This document shows positions 1,727 to 31,794 of a stretch of 64,000 nucleotides of DNA, in pieces. The notes under the pieces were generated by a model, which ran no database searches, had not been told where the DNA came from, and worked only from the letters and a program-made list of their open reading frames with translations. The DNA lies in the NCBI RefSeq assembly GCF_014202505.1, contig NZ_JACHGW010000003.1:124001-188000 (forward strand). The letters run 5' to 3'. The position numbers were made by a program, and so were the translations under genes. The stretch's first letter is position 1. The number at the start of each line of letters is the position of its first letter. This DNA comes from Armatimonas rosea. Its GTDB lineage: Bacteria; Armatimonadota; Armatimonadia; Armatimonadales; Armatimonadaceae.

Positions 1727-2749
1727 ATGAGCCAAATTACCATCCGATCCATTGATATTCGAAACATCTCCGATGACGACGCGAGGGCATCGCACGAGCT
1801 ACGTGTGGCCATGGCGGCGGAGCGCACGCCCGACGATCCCGCGCCCAAGTGGGAGGAGACCGAGGCGCAGCTGAGGACCATTCCGCCCTTTGTGGATGTC
1901 TGGGTGTGGTCGGTGGAGCAAGACGGCAAGGCCCTGGGAACCGCCGATCTGGGCGTCATGCGCACCGATGAGAACCAGCACCTGGCGCAGTTCTCCATCA
2001 AGCTCCTTCCTGAAGTGCGCCAGCAGGGAATCGGCAGGCAGCTCCTGCGAGAGATTGTCGCCGTGGCGGAGGCGGAGAACCGGACGCTTCTGATGACCGA
2101 CACGGCGAGCACCGTTCCTGCGGGCGCGGCGTTTCTGGAGCGTGTCGGGGCGACCGTGGGGCTAGAGTCGCACGTGAACCAGCTCAAGCTCGCCGAGATT
2201 CCTGAGGGGCTTCTTGAGACTTGGACAAGCGAGCTGGCCGATGGATTTACGCCCTGCCTGTGGGAGGGGCCGTACCCGGAGGAGAATATCCAAGAAGTGA
2301 TCGAGCTCTTTGATATCTTCAACACCGTCCCGCGTGGCACGCTCCAAGTGGATGACTTCAAGCTCACCGAGGAGCAGCTACGCCACCAAGAAGAGTCGCG
2401 CGCCAAGCGGGGAGTGGAGCGCTGGAGCCTGCACCTGCGCGACAACGAGACGGGTAAGATCGCGGGGCTGACCGAGCTGTTCTGGAACCCGCACAAGCCG
2501 ACATTCGCGCACCAGGGGATCACGGCGGTCTGGCCGCAGTACCGGGGCAAGCGCCTGGGCCGCTGGCTCAAAGCGGAGCTGCTGCGAAAGCTAATCGCCG
2601 AGCGCCCCCAGGTGACCATTGTCCGCACGGAGAACGCCGATAGCAACGATGCCATGCTCAAGATCAACACCGAGCTTGGCTTCAAGCCCTACCTCGCGGA
2701 GCTTGTCTGGCAGGTGCCCACGGAGACCGTGAAGGCCTATCTCGGCTAG
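1727..2749 (+). CDS. Tandem-GNAT N-acetyltransferase
   Basis: The 340-residue protein has two GCN5-related acetyltransferase domains. The acetyl-CoA loop of the first reads QQGIGRQLL (99-107) and that of the second reads RGKRLGRWL (273-281). Two-domain GNATs of this length include antibiotic and mycothiol-type acetyltransferases, but the acceptor cannot be predicted here. A strong AGGAGG lies 9 nt before the ATG. Upstream, TTGAGT (1674-1679) and TAGAGT (1698-1703) are spaced 18 nt apart and make a plausible vegetative promoter. The sugar kinase gene follows after 14 nt and is probably co-transcribed. Confidence 0.88.
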   Translation: MSQITIRSIDIRNISDDDARASHELRVAMAAERTPDDPAPKWEETEAQLRTIPPFVDVWVWSVEQDGKALGTADLGVMRTDENQHLAQFSIKLLPEVRQQGIGRQLLREIVAVAEAENRTLLMTDTASTVPAGAAFLERVGATVGLESHVNQLKLAEIPEGLLETWTSELADGFTPCLWEGPYPEENIQEVIELFDIFNTVPRGTLQVDDFKLTEEQLRHQEESRAKRGVERWSLHLRDNETGKIAGLTELFWNPHKPTFAHQGITAVWPQYRGKRLGRWLKAELLRKLIAERPQVTIVRTENADSNDAMLKINTELGFKPYLAELVWQVPTETVKAYLG

Positions 2750-21465: not shown

Positions 21466-24018
21466 TTAGTTGATGTAGAGCTGCTCTTTGGGGATAATCT
21501 GCCGTGGCTGAAGCGCGTGCTCCCACTCCAGCTTGAGGGTCGCCCCGCCCGAGCTGTCGTAGTACTCCACCGTGACCGCGTACTTCTGCCCCGCCACCAG
21601 GGTGATCGTCCCCGCGTTCTCCGTCGGCCCGTGGTCGGTCCAGTTATTGACCAGCTGCTGCCCATTGACCCAGAGCCGAACGCCATCGTCTGAGGTGGTG
21701 GTAAACGTGTAGACTCCCGAGTAGCGGGGCTGCACAAAGCCACTCCAGCGCGTGGAGAAGCCATCGACATTGACGCCTGGGGCCAGTGCGGTCGTGACCC
21801 AGCTAAAGTCGATTCCCGGCTCCACCCGGGTGACAATAGGTGTCCCCGTGAGGGTGAGGTTGTTGAAGTACTGCGCCGTCAGCCCGGTTCCCGTCCCCGG
21901 TCCGACCGAGCCACTGGGGGTCACGCTGGCGACATTGGTCGTTGCCAGGACGGTCGTCCCACTGAGTGCCTGGACACGGTAGTAGTAGGTCGTCCCATTG
22001 GTCCGTCCGGTATCCGTGGCGCTGGTTGCCGTGAGCCCCGAGACGACTGTCGTGAAGGGGCCTGCTGCGGCGGTGGCACGCTGGAGGGTGTAGCTTGCCG
22101 CACCTGGGTAGGGAGTCCAGCTCAGGCTCGCCTGCTGGTTTCCTGCAGTGCCGCTGAGAGTAAAGGCCACGGCGGCGGGGTAGAGAGCGCTGGCAGGGAC
22201 GATCTGCTGGGCTTGGCCGGGGTAGCTCCAGAACAGCTGCGCGATCGCACCGCCCCCGTTCTCGTAGTACTCCAGCTTGATGTCGTAGCGCTGCCCCGCG
22301 GTGAGTGTGAGTGTCCCGGAGTTGAGGGTCGGGCCATGGTCGGTCCAGTTATTGATGAGCTGCTGCCCGTTGACCCACAGCCGGATACCGTCGTCGGAGT
22401 TGGTGGTGAAGGTGTAGCTGCCGCTCACCGGCGCTTGGACCTGGCCGCTCCAGCGGGTGGAGAAGCCATTGATCCCGAGCCCGGTTCCGGGTGCGCCGAC
22501 TCCCCAGTCAAAGTTGACCGTCGCATCCACACGGGTGAGGGTGGGCGCGCCGGTGAAGCTGTAGTTGTAGTTGGTGAAGTACTCGCCGCGCAGGCCGGTG
22601 CCGGTGCCGGGGACATACTGCGGATCGACCCGCACCATCTTGGCGACTGAGGGGACGCCGGAGCTGTTGAGGACAAAGAGCATGTAGTAGCCCGGGGGCA
22701 TGTTCACCACCGTGCTGGGCGTGGTGGCGGTCACCTGGCCGGTCTGCTTGGTGAAGCTCAGCTTGACAATGCGCTGGTCGAAGTTGTTGGAGTGGGTCAC
22801 CGACGAGAGCTTGACCAGGTTGACGGCGGAGATTCCGGTGGCATCGGGGGTCTGGACCACGAAGCTCTGGTTCATTCCCACCACACTGGGAGCACTGGTG
22901 ATCGTGGGACGCGCACCTTTGAAGAGATACGGGGGCGAGTAGAGCTCCATGCTGAGGTTGTTGTCGCCGCCCGATGAGAGCACGCGGCCATCGGGGAGCA
23001 GGACGGTGGTGGAGTGGTACCAGCGGTTGCCGACCATACTAGCCAGCGCGGTGAACTGCTCCGTGGCCGGGTCCCAGAGCTCGGCGGTGAGAACGGGGGT
23101 GGTGAGGTTGTTAAAGCCCGCCCCCGATGTCCCCCCCGTGATCAGTACCTTGCCATCGGGGAGGAGTAGGCAGTTGGCCTGCCGCCGCGCCGTCCCCAGC
23201 TGCCCGACCGCACGCCAGGTGGGCGCAGCCTGGTTGAGGTCGATCACCTCGGCCGAGCGGGTGGGTGGGTCGCCGCCGCCACCGTAGAGAATCTTGCCGG
23301 TCTCGTACTGGCAGTAGAAGCCGTAGTCGCGGTTGCCAAAGGTCCGGTTGCCGACATTGCTCCAAGCGCCCGTCCCCGCCGTGTCCAGGTACTGCGACAT
23401 CTGGTTGGGCCCGAGCATGAAGAGCTTGCCATTGGGTGCGGGGACGATATCCGGGTAGAGGGGGACGATCTGGCGGGCGGTGGTGAGGTCGCGCCAGGTG
23501 CCGTTGGAGTAGACCTGGGGCAGGTCGTTGTGGGTGGAGGTCGTGCCGTAGGTTCCCGCCATCACCACCACATCGCCGCTTCCTAGCATCACGGAGCTGG
23601 GGTACCAGCGCCCGGCGTTCATATTGGCCTTGCGGGTGTAGGTATTGGTAAAGGGATCATAGACACTGGCGTAGGGGAGGCCGTCGCCGTCTTGGGTGTT
23701 GTGTCCGCCCAGGATCAGCAGGGTGCCGTCCGGGAGGAAGTTGTGCGACGAGCAAAACTCTTCGTAGCCGGGGCCGTTGATGGCGGCCAGCGTGTTGGTG
23801 GTCGGGTCGTAGAGGCGCGGCTGGGTGCCCTCGGGGGTGCGGGTCCAGAATAGCACCTTGCCCGTGGGGAGCATTGCGCTGTGGATCGAGCGGATCGGCC
23901 ACTGCTGGAGCGGCCCCCACTCACCCAGCACGTTGGTCTGCGCGAGCGCGGTGCGGGGGAGTAGCGAGGGAGCGGCAAGGAGGCAGAGAGCCGCACCCAT
24001 GCGGAGAAGACGAGACAT
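21466..24018 (-). CDS. Secreted copper-radical oxidase with two PA14 domains
   Basis: The 850-residue protein has a signal peptide (about 1-26), a kelch propeller of the galactose oxidase/glyoxal oxidase family, a DUF1929 domain (to about 465), PA14 (about 476-612), Fn3 (about 618-702) and a second PA14 (about 712-848). The expected copper and radical residues are present: Cys89 in FCSSHNF, Tyr139 in GRWYPSS, Tyr334 and His335 in NRWYHST, and His409 in SSVTHSNNFDQR. These enzymes oxidise primary alcohols or aldehydes to make H2O2, using a Cys-Tyr radical. PA14 domains bind glycans. The gene follows the CPYG-motif protein gene by 3 nt. The substrate is not known. Confidence 0.92.
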   Translation of the reverse strand: MSRLLRMGAALCLLAAPSLLPRTALAQTNVLGEWGPLQQWPIRSIHSAMLPTGKVLFWTRTPEGTQPRLYDPTTNTLAAINGPGYEEFCSSHNFLPDGTLLILGGHNTQDGDGLPYASVYDPFTNTYTRKANMNAGRWYPSSVMLGSGDVVVMAGTYGTTSTHNDLPQVYSNGTWRDLTTARQIVPLYPDIVPAPNGKLFMLGPNQMSQYLDTAGTGAWSNVGNRTFGNRDYGFYCQYETGKILYGGGGDPPTRSAEVIDLNQAAPTWRAVGQLGTARRQANCLLLPDGKVLITGGTSGAGFNNLTTPVLTAELWDPATEQFTALASMVGNRWYHSTTVLLPDGRVLSSGGDNNLSMELYSPPYLFKGARPTITSAPSVVGMNQSFVVQTPDATGISAVNLVKLSSVTHSNNFDQRIVKLSFTKQTGQVTATTPSTVVNMPPGYYMLFVLNSSGVPSVAKMVRVDPQYVPGTGTGLRGEYFTNYNYSFTGAPTLTRVDATVNFDWGVGAPGTGLGINGFSTRWSGQVQAPVSGSYTFTTNSDDGIRLWVNGQQLINNWTDHGPTLNSGTLTLTAGQRYDIKLEYYENGGGAIAQLFWSYPGQAQQIVPASALYPAAVAFTLSGTAGNQQASLSWTPYPGAASYTLQRATAAAGPFTTVVSGLTATSATDTGRTNGTTYYYRVQALSGTTVLATTNVASVTPSGSVGPGTGTGLTAQYFNNLTLTGTPIVTRVEPGIDFSWVTTALAPGVNVDGFSTRWSGFVQPRYSGVYTFTTTSDDGVRLWVNGQQLVNNWTDHGPTENAGTITLVAGQKYAVTVEYYDSSGGATLKLEWEHALQPRQIIPKEQLYIN

Positions 24019-24021
24019 GGT

Positions 24022-24615
24022 CTAGGGGGTTCCTTTCGAGAGGGGGGACGAGAGGGGGGAGAGGAGGCGCACCTCCAGCTGTCCGGCACGGAGCGGGCCG
24101 GTGACGGTAACGGGCTTGCCGACAAGGGTTTGGAGGCGTGCGTAGGTGCTCCGCTCGGAGTCGAGGAGGGGTGCGGCGCACTTGCCCTTGGTGTCCCACT
24201 GGACTTTCTGGGTCAGCGGCACCAGGGGCAGGCGCTCGCCGGTCTTGCGGCTCACCAGCCAGAGCGTCTCGCCCTGCTTCTGAACCGTTCCTACGACACT
24301 CAGCTCGATGCCGTAGAGATGAGCACCGATCTGGAGCGTGTCTTCCAGGTAGGTCTTGATCGCTTTTTCACTGGGCACACGGCCCGACGTCAGCGTCAAG
24401 GTTGCCGTCGAGGTCGCAAAGTCGGCGGTCTGGGGTACGTTGGCTACGCCTGACAGGCGTAGGAGTCCTTCACGGACATTGGGCCATCACGCCGCGAGCC
24501 CGTAGGGGCAGTTCATCTGAATCCCCAGCGTCATCGCGGTGACCTCTGCCCGGCCAGGGCGGCCCAGCGATAAGAGAGAGAGTGTGGCTACAAAAACAAA
24601 GAAAAGGTGTCGCAT
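24022..24615 (-). CDS. Exported CPYG-motif protein (HMA-like) with in-frame UGA, selenoprotein candidate
   Basis: Two open stretches in one frame, separated by a single TGA at codon 43 (24489-24487), read as one 197-residue protein. Residues 1-23 are a signal peptide (MRHLFFVFVATLSLLSLG). Next comes MNCPYGLAA, then the TGA, then WPNVREGLLRLSGVANV and a C-terminal beta-rich domain. The region around the TGA resembles the metal-binding loop and first helix of an HMA domain. Downstream codons keep normal bias. A hairpin with a G-containing loop follows the TGA at about 32 nt, as in bacterial SECIS elements. It lies 3 nt upstream of the copper-radical oxidase gene, so a role in copper delivery is plausible. 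A nonsense mutation or a base error is the plain alternative. Confidence 0.5.
24444..24462 (-). other. Hairpin after in-frame UGA, SECIS-like in outline
   Basis: On the minus strand CTACGCCT, loop GTC, AGGCGTAG: an 8-bp perfect stem starting 24 nt after the UGA. The loop begins with G. It lies fully inside the coding sequence. Confidence 0.4.
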
Positions 24616-24667: not shown

Positions 24668-24764
24668 CCGCTTCGCTTCTGGCATCCTGCCACAAAGTCG
24701 CTCCGCGACATCCCATCTCATGTCGCGGAGCGACTGTGCGGCGCTTGCGCCAGAAGCGAAGCGG
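24668..24764. repeat. Nested palindromic element
   Basis: The outer arms CCGCTTCGCTTCTGGC (24668-24683) and its perfect complement (24749-24764) enclose inner arms AGTCGCTCCGCGACAT (24696-24711) and complement (24720-24735). It occupies the gap between the CPYG gene and the RtcB2 gene. Function is unknown; the whole would fold into a two-tier hairpin in RNA or a cruciform in DNA. Confidence 0.8.
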
Positions 24765-26545: not shown

Positions 26546-28225
26546 TTACTCTCCCCGAATCGCCTTACTGCTGAGATCAACCGTGTTGGTATTGGTTCCC
26601 CAGATCACCTGGTTGCTCCAGACCGCACTGCCCCAGATCACCTGGCTGGCATTGAGGATATTGGCACTGGTTCCCCAGATCACCTGGTTGCCCCAGACCA
26701 CCTTGAGGTTATTGACCCCATTGACCCCCCAGATCACCTGAGTGCCCCCGAGCATGCTACTGGTATTGATGTAGACATTGCCAGCGCCATCCTGGTAGAG
26801 GTTGGGGCTCACGGCGGGGGCGGTGGCCACGGCGGTGCTCTGGATGGCGTTGTAGATATTGAGCATCCCCGCGCCATAGGAGCAGGGATCGGTGTAGAGG
26901 CCGCCTTTATCGCTCACTTTGTCGGCGGAGAGCATGAGGCGTGCCTTGATCGTGTCGGGGGTGAGCCAGGGCTCTTTCTCCAGCAAGATCGCCGCCGCCC
27001 CGGAGACTACCGGAGCCGCCATCGAGGTCCCGGAGAGCCGGAAGTAGAAGCGCGAGCTGGTATCGCGGCCGGTCTTGTACTCGGTCTGCTTGACCGCGTT
27101 GGTTGCACCGTAGGTTGTCGCGAGATAGCTGGTATTTGAGAGAGTGGAGATCACTTGGTTGCCGGGGGCGACAAGATCAGGCTTGAGGATAAAGTCGAGG
27201 CGGCTGGGGCCACGGCTGGAGTAGGTCGCGAGCTTATCGTTGGCCCGGTTGCCATCGACATTCTTGACCGCTCCAACCGTGATGACATACGGGTCGTTGC
27301 CCGGCGACTGGATCGAGCCGTAGTTGATCCCGTAGCCCTCGTTGAGCTGGCCCGCTTGCGCCGTATCGCTCTGGCGCCCCGTATTGCCCGCGGCACAGAC
27401 CACGACAATTCCGGCCTTCCACGCGGCCTCGACAGCCTGGCAGAGCGGGTCGGTCTTGTAGCTCTCCCCAACAGGGTGCCCAAGCGAGAGGTTGAGGATG
27501 CGAATATTGAGCGCGGTCTTATTGGCGATCACCCACTGGATCCCCGCGATCACATCGGTGACACTGCCTTGGCCCTTGCCATCGAGGACCGTGACATCCA
27601 CCAGGTAGGCTCCCGGTGCGACTCCGTAGAACGTGCGGAAGCTGCCTGGCCCCGACGAGGCACAGCCAAAGCCGGCGATAATGCCCGCGACATGGGTCCC
27701 GTGGCCGCAGGGATCCTCCGTATTGCCACTGGCGTTGAAGTTGGCATTGGCGATCACACCGCCTGCCATATCGGGATGGTTGTCCTTGATCCCGCTGTCC
27801 AGCACCGCCACATTGACTCCCCAGCCGGCGTAGCCAAAGTCGTTCCAGACCGCCTTAGCATTGGAGTGCTCGGTGATGAACTCATCGCTTTTCTTGACAG
27901 TCGTGTCGGCGGAGAGGTGCTCCACAAACGGGAGGGCGGCGAGGGCCTTGAGGTTCCGGGTCGGAAGCCGCACCCCCGCTGAGCCGATCAGCTCCAGGTT
28001 GCGGTAGGTGTCTGCTTGGAGCGCCGTGAGCTGCTGGCGCTGGTTGCTATCGAGCTTGCCGGAAAACTTCACCACCACCGAGGTCCAGCCCGCACTCTGG
28101 TTAGAGGCACGAGCCAGTACAGGACGGAGGAAGCTATCGGCCTTGGTGAGCTCTGTCTGTGCTCGTGCCCCACTGGCGAGCAGGGGCAAGAGTGTCAGGG
28201 CAGCTAGAGAGAGTCGATTTCGCAT
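26546..28225 (-). CDS. Secreted S8 subtilase with Trp-Gly repeat tail, copy 2
   Basis: The 559-residue protein has a signal peptide (about 1-22), an I9-like propeptide (about 35-110), an S8 domain with triad Asp143 (AVLDSG), His175 (CGHGTHVAG) and Ser401 (SGTSMAAP), and a tail (about 495-559) with irregular repeats of the form QVIWG or KVVWG. It is about 13 bp downstream of a close paralogue on the same strand, so the pair is a tandem duplication and an operon. AGGAAAGAG precedes ATG 28225, and the longer upstream frame is not needed. The tail may bind a surface or aid export; this is not known. Confidence 0.92.
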   Translation of the reverse strand: MRNRLSLAALTLLPLLASGARAQTELTKADSFLRPVLARASNQSAGWTSVVVKFSGKLDSNQRQQLTALQADTYRNLELIGSAGVRLPTRNLKALAALPFVEHLSADTTVKKSDEFITEHSNAKAVWNDFGYAGWGVNVAVLDSGIKDNHPDMAGGVIANANFNASGNTEDPCGHGTHVAGIIAGFGCASSGPGSFRTFYGVAPGAYLVDVTVLDGKGQGSVTDVIAGIQWVIANKTALNIRILNLSLGHPVGESYKTDPLCQAVEAAWKAGIVVVCAAGNTGRQSDTAQAGQLNEGYGINYGSIQSPGNDPYVITVGAVKNVDGNRANDKLATYSSRGPSRLDFILKPDLVAPGNQVISTLSNTSYLATTYGATNAVKQTEYKTGRDTSSRFYFRLSGTSMAAPVVSGAAAILLEKEPWLTPDTIKARLMLSADKVSDKGGLYTDPCSYGAGMLNIYNAIQSTAVATAPAVSPNLYQDGAGNVYINTSSMLGGTQVIWGVNGVNNLKVVWGNQVIWGTSANILNASQVIWGSAVWSNQVIWGTNTNTVDLSSKAIRGE

Positions 28226-28238
28226 GGGAGTCTCTTTC

Positions 28239-29966
28239 CTAGCTCTCACCAAAGATCGCGGTACTACTCAGGTCGGCAGCGGTGCTATTGGTTCCCCAGA
28301 TCGCCATATTGCCCCAGAGCGCTTGGTTTCCCCAGATCGCCTGGGTACTGTTGACCGTAAAGCCCCAGATCGCCTTGTTTCCCCAGATTGCCTGGACCCC
28401 CCAGATCGCTTGCACGCCCCAGATCGCCTGGTAGCTGGTGACACTCTGAACCCCCCAGATCGCGCGGGTGCTTCCCACCGCGCCCCAGATCGCACGGTTT
28501 GGGTCGACCAGCATGACACCTGTGGTGCCGGACTTCAGGAGAGGAGGGCTCAGAGCCGCCACCGTGGTCTTGACACTCTGGCCCAGTGCCGCGGGAATAT
28601 TGAGCAGGCCCGCGCCGTAGGTGCAGGGATCGCTCCAGAGCTTGTCGGCGGAGAACATCAGGCGCGCCTTGACGGTGTCGGGGGTGAGGGTCGAGTCTTT
28701 CTGGAGCAGAAGTGCTGCTGCCCCTGCAACTACCGGAGCCGCCATCGAGGTCCCCGAGAGGTAGAAGTAGCGCAGAGAGTCGTCGGAGGACCCAACATTC
28801 AGGTAGGTGTTCCAGGGCAGAGCGTTGGTGGCCGCGTAGGCCTGGCTGAGCGTGTTGTAGCCCAGAGCGGAGTTGAGGCTGATAACACGGTTGCCGGGGG
28901 CGACCAGATCGGGCTTCATCACATTGTCGATGCGGCTAGGCCCCCGGCTGGAGTAGGTGGCGATCTGGTCGAGCAGGCGGCTGTTGAAGTTGTTCTTGAC
29001 CGCCCCGACCGTGATGACATAGGGATCGTTGCCTGGCGAGGTGATCGAGCCGTAGTTACTGCCGTAGCCCTCGTTGGGTTGCCCGAGCTTCGCGACCCCA
29101 TTCAAGCGGCCCTCGTTTCCTGCGGCACAGACCACGACAATCCCCGCCTTCCACGCGGCCTCGACAGCCAGGCAGAGGGGGTCGGTCTTGTAGCTCTCCC
29201 CGACTTCATGGCCGAGGGAGAGGTTCAGGACACGAATATTGTTGCCATTGAGGTCTTTGTTGGTGATCACCCACTGGATCGCAGCGATGGCGTTGCTGAC
29301 CTTCCCCTCGCCATTGTGATCGAGGATGCGGACATTGATGATCTTAGCCTCCGGCGCGATCCCATAGAACGTCCGGAAAGCCTTGGTGCCGGACGAGGCG
29401 GAGCCATCGCCGGCGATAATGCCTGCGACATGGCTCCCATGCCCACAGGGGTCTCCCGCCTTGTCCTCACCGGCAAAGTCGGGTGACGAGACGATGCGCG
29501 ACTTTAGGCCATCGAGGAGGTCGGGGTGGAGGGGAGCGACTCCGCTATCCAGAACCGCGACCCCCACGCCCGTTCCCTTGAAGCCGTAGCTCCACGCCAC
29601 ATCGGCTCCCGAGTGCCCAACCGTGAACTCATCCGTTTTCCTGACCGTGACATCGGCGGAGAGGCGCTCCACAAACGCAAGAGCACTCAGGGCGGTGAGT
29701 TTGCGCGCGGGGATACGGAGCGCCACAGAGTGGACCAGCGGGAGGTGGCGGTAGATATCTCCTCCCAGGGCCTTGAGCTGCGCCTCTTCGGCAGCACTGA
29801 CTCCCTGTGGCGAGCGGACAATCACCGAAGTCCACCCCGACGACTGCGTGCGCCTTGCCTGGAGAAACGCATCCGTCTTTGGAGCCTGACCCCACGAGGA
29901 GGAAGTGATGAGGGAGAGGAGGGTAGTAGTAAGTAGCGAGCTTCGATAGATTTTTAGTTTGCGCAT
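28239..29966 (-). CDS. Secreted S8 subtilase with Trp-Gly repeat tail, copy 1
   Basis: The 575-residue protein has a signal peptide (about 1-26), a propeptide, and an S8 domain with Asp140 (AVLDSG), His176 (CGHGSHVAG) and Ser407 (SGTSMAAP). A tail (about 490-575) has nine or so units ending AIWG or ALWG, some only five residues apart (VQAIWGVQAIWGNKAIWG). The DNA over these units repeats CCCCAGATCGC on the plus strand. I chose ATG 29966 (MRKLKIYRSSLL) because it opens the signal peptide and has AGGAAA upstream; a frame 43 codons longer reads into an AT-rich promoter region. Confidence 0.92.
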   Translation of the reverse strand: MRKLKIYRSSLLTTTLLSLITSSSWGQAPKTDAFLQARRTQSSGWTSVIVRSPQGVSAAEEAQLKALGGDIYRHLPLVHSVALRIPARKLTALSALAFVERLSADVTVRKTDEFTVGHSGADVAWSYGFKGTGVGVAVLDSGVAPLHPDLLDGLKSRIVSSPDFAGEDKAGDPCGHGSHVAGIIAGDGSASSGTKAFRTFYGIAPEAKIINVRILDHNGEGKVSNAIAAIQWVITNKDLNGNNIRVLNLSLGHEVGESYKTDPLCLAVEAAWKAGIVVVCAAGNEGRLNGVAKLGQPNEGYGSNYGSITSPGNDPYVITVGAVKNNFNSRLLDQIATYSSRGPSRIDNVMKPDLVAPGNRVISLNSALGYNTLSQAYAATNALPWNTYLNVGSSDDSLRYFYLSGTSMAAPVVAGAAALLLQKDSTLTPDTVKARLMFSADKLWSDPCTYGAGLLNIPAALGQSVKTTVAALSPPLLKSGTTGVMLVDPNRAIWGAVGSTRAIWGVQSVTSYQAIWGVQAIWGVQAIWGNKAIWGFTVNSTQAIWGNQALWGNMAIWGTNSTAADLSSTAIFGES

Positions 29967-30078
29967 CGTTTTTCCTGCCAATTGTTTAATTTCTGGCTGG
30001 TACTTAAGATGCGCTTGTCCTGAATTGACGATAAGCCGGTAAAATAACTTGTTTATAAACGGGGTAACATAGTAAATA

Positions 30079-31794
30079 ATGATATCTTTTGTCACACTAA
30101 CGCAGCAAAGCCTTCCCTTCCCTCAGCTTCCCTCCGTCGTCCTTGATGAGCCCAACACGGGCTACGGCCTCGCGCAGCAGCTCTGCCGTGAGCGAAAGGC
30201 GCAGGGGCGGCTCCTCTGGGTGGACGCAACCGCCAATATCGACCGGGTCAATACGGCGGAGAAGATCCAGGTGCTGGTCGCGAAGATCAAGAGCGTGGGC
30301 TTCAATACCATTGTCTTTGATGTGAAGCCGATCTTGGGGGAGACACTCTACCCGAGCAAGCTGGCACCCAAGCTCACGGAGTGGGTGCGGCCCTGGGCGA
30401 CCTACAAGCTCCCCGCTGACTTTGATCCGCTGAAGGTGATGAGCACGGAGTGCCGCAAGCAAGGGCTAAGCCTGATTGTCGCCTTCAATGCCTTCTCCGA
30501 GGGGCACCGTGAGTTCCCCAAGAAAGGCCTCGCGGTGGCAAAGCCCGAGTGGCAGACGGTCCTCTACGAAAACACCGTGGCGATCGAGGGAAATACGCTC
30601 GGGGAGAACCTTCAGATACTCACCGATACCGCCAAGCTCCCCAAGCTCACTCCCGAGAGCTACGCCGTGGCGCTGGACAAAGACGGTAAGCTGGTCGCGC
30701 TGTTTGAGGGCGCGGCACTGGCGGCGCTGACCCCTAAGACGAGCGAGGGGGGGGCGTTCTTGCTGGCCGTGGGGAAGGACGAGGCGGCGTGGCTGCGGAG
30801 CAAGAAGCTCGGGGAGAGCCTGCAGCCGACCGTGACGCCGCGTTTTGCGAGGCTAGGGGAGATGGCGCAGCGCCAAGTTCCGCTGATGACCAACCCCCAC
30901 CACCCCGACGTCCGCCAGCGCTTGCTGGACATCCTCACCGAGGTGGCGAGCGGCTACGATATCGACGGCGTGATCTTCGATGACCGCCTGCGCTACGCCG
31001 CCCTCAACGCGGACTTCTCCGACTTGGCGCGCAAGGACTTTGAGGCCTGGCGCGGCCAGCCGGTGGAGAGCTGGCCCCAGGATATCTTCCGCTGGGAGGT
31101 AGCCTGGCCCACCCTGGAGCGGCGCTGGGCGGTCCCCGGCCCGCTCTACGAGCAGTGGCTGGTCTTCCGGGCCCAGACCCTCAAGCGCTTTGTTAGCGAT
31201 GCGGCCCGGACCGTGAAGGCGGTCAAGCCCGGCCTCTGCTTTGCAACCTATGTCGGCTCCTGGTACCCGGACTACCCGGAGCTGGGCGCAAACTGGGCCG
31301 CCGACGATCTCCAGGCCGGCCTGCACTTCCTCAGCGATAGCTACCGTGCCACGGGCTGGGCGGGGCTGACCGACTTTATGGTCACGGGCTGCTACTACAA
31401 GATTCCCACACTGCGGGATGCGCTCACCCTCGGGCGAAATATCGGCGATACGGTGGAGGCAGCCGGCCAGTTCTCCAACCGAGCGGTGGGGGACGCCACT
31501 TTTGTCTACGCCGGCATCTCTCTGGAGCACTACAAGGGCCGCCCCGAAGAGCTCAAGCGCACCCTCCAAGCCGCCTGCGCCACGACCCAGGGGATCATGT
31601 GCTTCGACCTCTCCCACGATATCGAGCCGCTCTGGCCGCTCTTCACCGAGGCCTTCAAGACGCCCCTGCCCGCGCCCCACACCCTCCCCGGCCTCCTCCC
31701 CGAGCTACGCCGCCGCCGCGAAAAGAAAAAAGCCAGCGGAAAGCCCGAGCCCCCCGTGATCCTCTACCGAGGCACATCGGGGACCGGATTTTAG
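30079..31794 (+). CDS. GHL10-like glycosidase-family protein
   Basis: The 571-residue protein resembles the GHL10 (YngK/DUF187-related) TIM-barrel family: RLLWVDATANIDRVNTAEKIQ and GFNTIVFDVKP near the start, and YDIDGVIFDDRLRYAALN in the middle, a form typical of the catalytic Asp strand. The C-terminus is basic and low-complexity. No signal peptide is obvious, so export is uncertain. These enzymes are thought to cleave polysaccharides, but the substrate is not known. It is divergent from the subtilase pair, with 112 bp of AT-rich DNA between the starts. Confidence 0.78.
   Translation: MISFVTLTQQSLPFPQLPSVVLDEPNTGYGLAQQLCRERKAQGRLLWVDATANIDRVNTAEKIQVLVAKIKSVGFNTIVFDVKPILGETLYPSKLAPKLTEWVRPWATYKLPADFDPLKVMSTECRKQGLSLIVAFNAFSEGHREFPKKGLAVAKPEWQTVLYENTVAIEGNTLGENLQILTDTAKLPKLTPESYAVALDKDGKLVALFEGAALAALTPKTSEGGAFLLAVGKDEAAWLRSKKLGESLQPTVTPRFARLGEMAQRQVPLMTNPHHPDVRQRLLDILTEVASGYDIDGVIFDDRLRYAALNADFSDLARKDFEAWRGQPVESWPQDIFRWEVAWPTLERRWAVPGPLYEQWLVFRAQTLKRFVSDAARTVKAVKPGLCFATYVGSWYPDYPELGANWAADDLQAGLHFLSDSYRATGWAGLTDFMVTGCYYKIPTLRDALTLGRNIGDTVEAAGQFSNRAVGDATFVYAGISLEHYKGRPEELKRTLQAACATTQGIMCFDLSHDIEPLWPLFTEAFKTPLPAPHTLPGLLPELRRRREKKKASGKPEPPVILYRGTSGTGF

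Follow-up and report, generated by a model that had tools for sequence, protein, structure and literature searches.

We propose that the 64,000-nucleotide stretch of Armatimonas rosea DNA analysed here (the window) encodes a selenoprotein that supplies copper to the oxidase encoded by the next gene. In our proposal an in-frame UGA is decoded as selenocysteine (Sec) by SelA, SelB, SelD and tRNA-Sec, and the resulting secreted protein, made up of an HMA and an OB domain, holds Cu(I) and passes it to the neighbouring copper-radical oxidase; we give this reading as a whole a probability of roughly two-thirds. Its parts differ in strength. That the UGA codes for Sec is, judged from sequence comparison, nearly certain, and the Sec decoding, the fold, the linkage of the genes and the intact copper ligands of the partner are each supported by computation.

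Decoding of the in-frame UGA

The selenoprotein gene is a single frame of 197 codons and a TAG stop codon that is interrupted only by the TGA at codon 43 (Table 1). The interruption is as the sequence-only reading had described it, and the other parts named there, a signal peptide and MNCPYGLAA before the UGA and WPNVREGLLRLSGV after it, all match the sequence. Between this gene and an rtcB-like gene lie nested inverted repeats (window 24668-24764; 23-nt arms 91% and 16-nt arms 100% complementary) that resemble a REP or MITE element. Two tandem subtilase genes are also present in the window (26546-30095, minus strand), and their C-terminal tails are runs of VIWG/AIWG repeats.

Table 1. Features of the selenoprotein gene and its oxidase neighbour, in window coordinates.
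Feature	Position	Strand	Basis or remark
Selenoprotein gene	24022..24615	-	197 codons; codon 43 (24489-24487) is UGA, almost certainly Sec; TAG at 24024-24022; in homologues codon 43 is either UGA or Cys
Signal peptide, residues 1-22	24550..24615	-	Pattern MRH-LFFVFVATLSLLSL-GRPGRA; cleavage site judged by eye, without a predictor
Cys36 codon, first candidate metal ligand, invariant	24508..24510	-	Homologue alignment
UGA codon 43, almost certainly Sec, where the HMA fold has its second metal-binding Cys	24487..24489	-	L011 and L012 also have UGA in this column, 14 homologues have Cys
Small upstream hairpin	24465..24477	-	Some other UGA genes have a similar hairpin in a shifted register
Apical SECIS-like hairpin, 8 bp, loop GUC	24444..24462	-	CUACGCCU-GUC-AGGCGUAG; stem in the same columns in ten UGA genes
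HMA-like domain (approximate boundary)	24292..24549	-	AlphaFold, Foldseek, profile comparison
OB-fold domain (approximate boundary)	24046..24291	-	AlphaFold, Foldseek
GlxA/galactose-oxidase-like copper-radical oxidase with PA14 and fn3 domains, probable client	21466..24018	-	Pfam, NCBIfam; ligands kept

The sequence-only reading had proposed a search of the genome for selA, selB, selD and tRNA-Sec. We found that all four are present in the genome to which the window belongs (G000; 6.3 Mb, 98% complete), so that the Sec machinery is complete: the tRNA-Sec has a UCA anticodon (61.6 bits) and was confirmed with ARAGORN, and the three genes score 506.7 bits (selA), 356.6 bits (selB) and 372.3 bits (selD). 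The selD gene is itself split by a TGA near its N-terminus, within the sequence GUASK, which resembles the UxxK motif of Sec-containing SelD. This indicates that UGA serves for Sec elsewhere in the same genome.

When 300 related genomes were searched, five homologues of the window protein were found. Two of these, L011 and L012 (genomes G185 and G029), belong to other families of the phylum Armatimonadota and have TGA in the same column, in the context NCPYGLAG-UGA-W, while the homologues in G243, G014 and G227 have TGT or TGC there. A scan of contigs across genomes, using a pattern that demanded Cys at the site, gave 13 Cys homologues, all of which show CP[YD]G[LI]xxC, from Armatimonadota, Actinobacteria, Nostoc, Planctomycetia, Verrucomicrobiota and Acidobacteria; the search for the UGA form was confined to Armatimonadota. 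Since the contigs of G243 and G227 recur among these 13, the addition of the G014 homologue (L014) brings the Cys homologues to 14, and the homologues overall cover six phyla. It can be seen from the family alignment that Cys36 and residue 43 (Sec or Cys) are invariant. An alignment at codon 43 had also been proposed as a check, and only UGA (three genomes) or Cys (14 homologues) occurs there.

The UCA tRNA-Sec is present in every genome that has a UGA gene, namely G000, G185 and G029 together with G170 and G024, which carry more distant UGA genes. In Armatimonadota, the three genomes whose homologue has Cys gave only tRNA-Ser-like matches, all below the cut-off, and no selA above the cut-off. 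A real selA was not found in G185, a genome that is just 64% complete. A scan of viral contigs found no relatives, and in a tree of the 17 domains the support was too low to tell a single from a multiple origin of the three Sec forms.

An 8-bp perfect stem with the loop GTC had been reported to start 24 nt after the UGA, and this hairpin is indeed found there. It lies just 3' of the UGA and has an early G in its apical loop, the features looked for in a SECIS element. Among all TGA triplets of the window, 4.3% are followed in the same range by a stem of at least 8 bp, and synonymous recodings of the same peptide yield a stem this long in 7% of cases. Because chance stems are found at 4-7% of comparable sites, the hairpin in a single gene is weak evidence, and we did not use it alone.

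The comparison was extended to ten UGA genes, which share the position of a seven-column stem, 25 nt downstream of the last UGA. All seven columns pair in the window gene, L011, L012, L043 and L107, and the other five UGA genes have one or two mismatches; the seven-pair stem is complete in none of the 14 Cys homologues. The outermost pair takes four types across the UGA genes (A-U, U-A, C-G and G-C), and 91% of cells are paired at the true register as against 37-53% when the partner is slid. A null model in which codons were redrawn while each peptide was kept gave a combined p of about 6e-7, a value that overstates the case because the genes are taken as independent though they are related.

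A potential explanation that would not need to invoke Sec is that the UGA is a true stop, either in a pseudogene, through a base error, or at the end of a 42-residue product that is followed by an unrelated frame. The frequency with which comparably good hairpins arise by chance would be compatible with this. However, the frame is homologous and intact on both sides of the UGA, the full Sec machinery is present, the hairpin is shared, and the UGA occurs in the same column in independent genomes with Cys elsewhere, so we consider a true stop scarcely credible. In particular, a base error or a fresh pseudogene is ruled out by the recurrence of the UGA in independent genomes. Decoding of the UGA as Trp was likewise ruled out, as homologues have Cys at this place and the conserved Trp occupies the following position. 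The earlier suggestion of a selenoprotein is thus supported by the complete machinery, the exchange of UGA and Cys at codon 43 and the same-column UGA in other genomes.

Fold and candidate metal site

The window protein matched no Pfam or NCBIfam family. PF00403 (HMA) gave no match for proteins P0001-P0006, the window protein matched neither the SCO1-SenC family of Pfam nor NF041115 (UxxU metal-binding selenoprotein), and a profile search of PDB sequences returned nothing meaningful, so that fold comparison was required. With 14 natural sequences as input, AlphaFold gave a model with pLDDT 92 and pTM 0.85. Foldseek assigned domain 1 to the HMA fold, with matches to the CopA N-terminal domain (1kqk) and MerP (1osd), and domain 2 to the OB fold (STN1, lysyl-tRNA synthetase); the beta-alpha-beta-beta-alpha-beta order of the HMA fold is present in the model. 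The site itself is not the CxxC of metal carriers but CPYGLxxU/C, which is four residues longer.

In profile-profile comparison the family aligned with CxxU/UxxU proteins over both domains (probability 96.7), with four residues inserted between Cys36 and residue 43, and one of these relatives, P0007, exceeds the Pfam HMA cut-off. This alignment, together with the HMA match of the relative, puts Sec43 where an HMA domain has its second metal-binding Cys. The proposal that Cys36 and Sec43 would bind a metal gains support from the homology and fold relationship to HMA domains, and we conclude, on computational support from sequence and model, that the mature protein probably consists of an HMA-type metal carrier with an attached OB domain.

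The CxxU/UxxU proteins came to light because the family profile also retrieved two more distant HMA-OB genes, L043 (CxxU) and L044 (UxxU). A profile of these two found five further UGA genes in the phylum, L104-L108. P0007 and P0008 score 27.8 and 33.0 bits against NF041115, where the cut-off is 95, and the relatives match CopZ, MerP and UxxU metal-binding models. No GlxA gene was found near the sister genes in L070 and L071. The sister group (L102-L108 with L043 and L044, near position 1501 of each) is made up of HMA-OB selenoproteins of Armatimonadota with CxxU or UxxU sites and the same hairpin. Downstream of the CxxU gene in L043 there is a second HMA-like frame (2145-2546, plus strand) with an in-frame TGA in the sequence DGALUGGCAG (UxxC).

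Association with copper-radical oxidases

The oxidase gene starts 3 nt after the stop codon of the selenoprotein. Its product shares the kelch and E-set domains and all the copper-radical residues of GlxA and galactose oxidases, to which PA14 domains are added, and it scores 222.5 bits against the NCBIfam GlxA equivalog (cut-off 800). The CYYHH set (the Cys-Tyr pair, the axial Tyr and two His) is kept both in the window oxidase and in all linked homologues. In G029 the selenoprotein precedes the oxidase as in the window, with the oxidase frame starting at once, and in G185 the oxidase gene lies directly upstream of the selenoprotein on the same strand. Of the 14 Cys homologues, 11 follow the oxidase as a C-terminal fusion, one (L025) is fused to the oxidase N-terminus, and two (L027 and L034) are separate genes near an oxidase. 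Members of the CPYG family are therefore adjacent or fused to a GlxA-like oxidase in 17/17 cases, which include 12 fusions and span six phyla. The sequence-only reading had remarked on the nearby copper-radical oxidase, and the association goes beyond that remark, since it holds for every CPYG homologue found.

Since every case found is encoded next to a copper-radical oxidase or as a fusion with one, the protein probably provides that oxidase with copper. The hairpin 3' of the UGA would direct the SelA/SelB/SelD/tRNA-Sec machinery to insert Sec at codon 43, and Cys36 and Sec43 would replace the two metal cysteines of the HMA domain, at a spacing that is wider by four residues (CPYGLAAU). The secreted protein could then hold Cu(I) outside the cytoplasm and hand it to the apo-oxidase, which would form its Tyr-Cys cofactor. 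A selenolate, compared with a thiolate, would bind Cu(I) more tightly and be deprotonated at lower pH. We infer copper as the metal, its transfer to the oxidase and an advantage of selenium.

A GlxA-like gene is present in 19/291 genomes of the phylum, and these 19 include all six genomes with the CPYG family, which speaks for our proposal. Two observations count against copper delivery. Firstly, HMA carriers have CxxC, a spacing unlike the CX6U found here. Secondly, the other 13 of the 19 GlxA-bearing genomes manage without the protein. Strong Sco homologues (E < 1e-20) are found in seven of these 13 genomes and in none of the six that have a CPYG protein. In Streptomyces, Sco supplies copper to GlxA (PMC4736821). 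The distribution of Sco counts in favour of our proposal, as it hints at one chaperone replacing another, in a sample that is small and confounded by descent.

The chief rival to copper delivery is a redox or peroxide-removing role, in which a true selenoprotein would use Cys36 and Sec43 as a thiol/selenol centre that clears the H2O2 of the oxidase, or that helps to form or reduce its Tyr-Cys site, and would carry no copper. A redox function is assumed for most selenoproteins (PMC13188914), GlxA produces H2O2 and requires the peroxidase DtpA for its maturation in Streptomyces (PMC4736821), and the invariance of Cys36 and residue 43 would suit such a centre. However, the fold is that of an HMA metal carrier rather than thioredoxin-like and the relatives match CopZ and MerP models, and we regard a redox role as unlikely. 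It is less probable still that the selenoprotein binds or sequesters another soft metal, such as Hg or Cd, and that the link to the oxidase is incidental. The matches of the relatives to MerP and UxxU metal-binding models besides CopZ point in that direction, as do the ties of known metal-site Sec proteins to mercury and arsenic (PMC13188914), but the linkage to a copper oxidase is without exception among the 17 cases, and the window neighbours that were examined showed no mer genes.

If the protein does deliver copper, the supply of selenium might govern the copper enzyme, making both maturation and output of the oxidase selenium-dependent. Because the selenoprotein stop lies so close to the oxidase start, a UGA left undecoded at low selenium would cost the cell the carrier and also uncouple translation of the oxidase. 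We hold this idea to be doubtful; no link of selenium to the copper-radical oxidase class was found in the open-licence papers searched.

Relation to known systems

The selenoprotein had been suspected to be undescribed, and besides having no Pfam or NCBIfam match it is absent from a 2026 review that lists 119 prokaryotic selenoprotein families and subfamilies (PMC13188914). Neither the CPYGLxxU motif nor the oxidase partner appears in any of these 119, the nearest being NF041115, Sec-containing MerT-type transporters and Sec-containing P-type ATPases. The open-licence papers retrieved that mention both a selenoprotein and galactose oxidase have titles and abstracts on other subjects.

Each of the nearest systems shares some of the features of the window protein. 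The NF041115 protein likewise carries Sec in the metal site of an HMA-like metal-binding domain, whereas the window protein has CX6U in place of UxxU, an extra OB domain and the linkage to a copper-radical oxidase. HMA copper carriers (CopZ, the CopA N-terminal domain and MerP; PF00403) have the same fold and the same two ligand positions; the window protein differs from them in lacking the Pfam match, in the four residues added between the ligands, and in its Sec, fused OB domain and signal peptide. Sec is also located at heavy-metal sites in the MerT-type transporters and P-type ATPases (PMC13188914), but these are membrane transporters of other architecture and have no oxidase partner. Sco would share the proposed role, extracytoplasmic delivery of copper to an oxidase of the GlxA type (PMC4736821), but it belongs to the SCO1-SenC domain family, is encoded elsewhere in S. 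lividans and is without Sec.

We conclude that the window protein appears to represent a new selenoprotein family within the HMA-like metal carriers with Sec, the latter being already known. The copper-supply claim is directly testable with the Cys homologues, most of which are fused to the oxidase and some of which come from cultured strains, such as the fused L028 of Geodermatophilus amargosae. If it is true, a copper-radical oxidase would have a dedicated carrier with Sec in its metal site, and the HMA-OB domain would be the copper supply for a broad group of bacterial galactose-oxidase-like enzymes, here found in six phyla.
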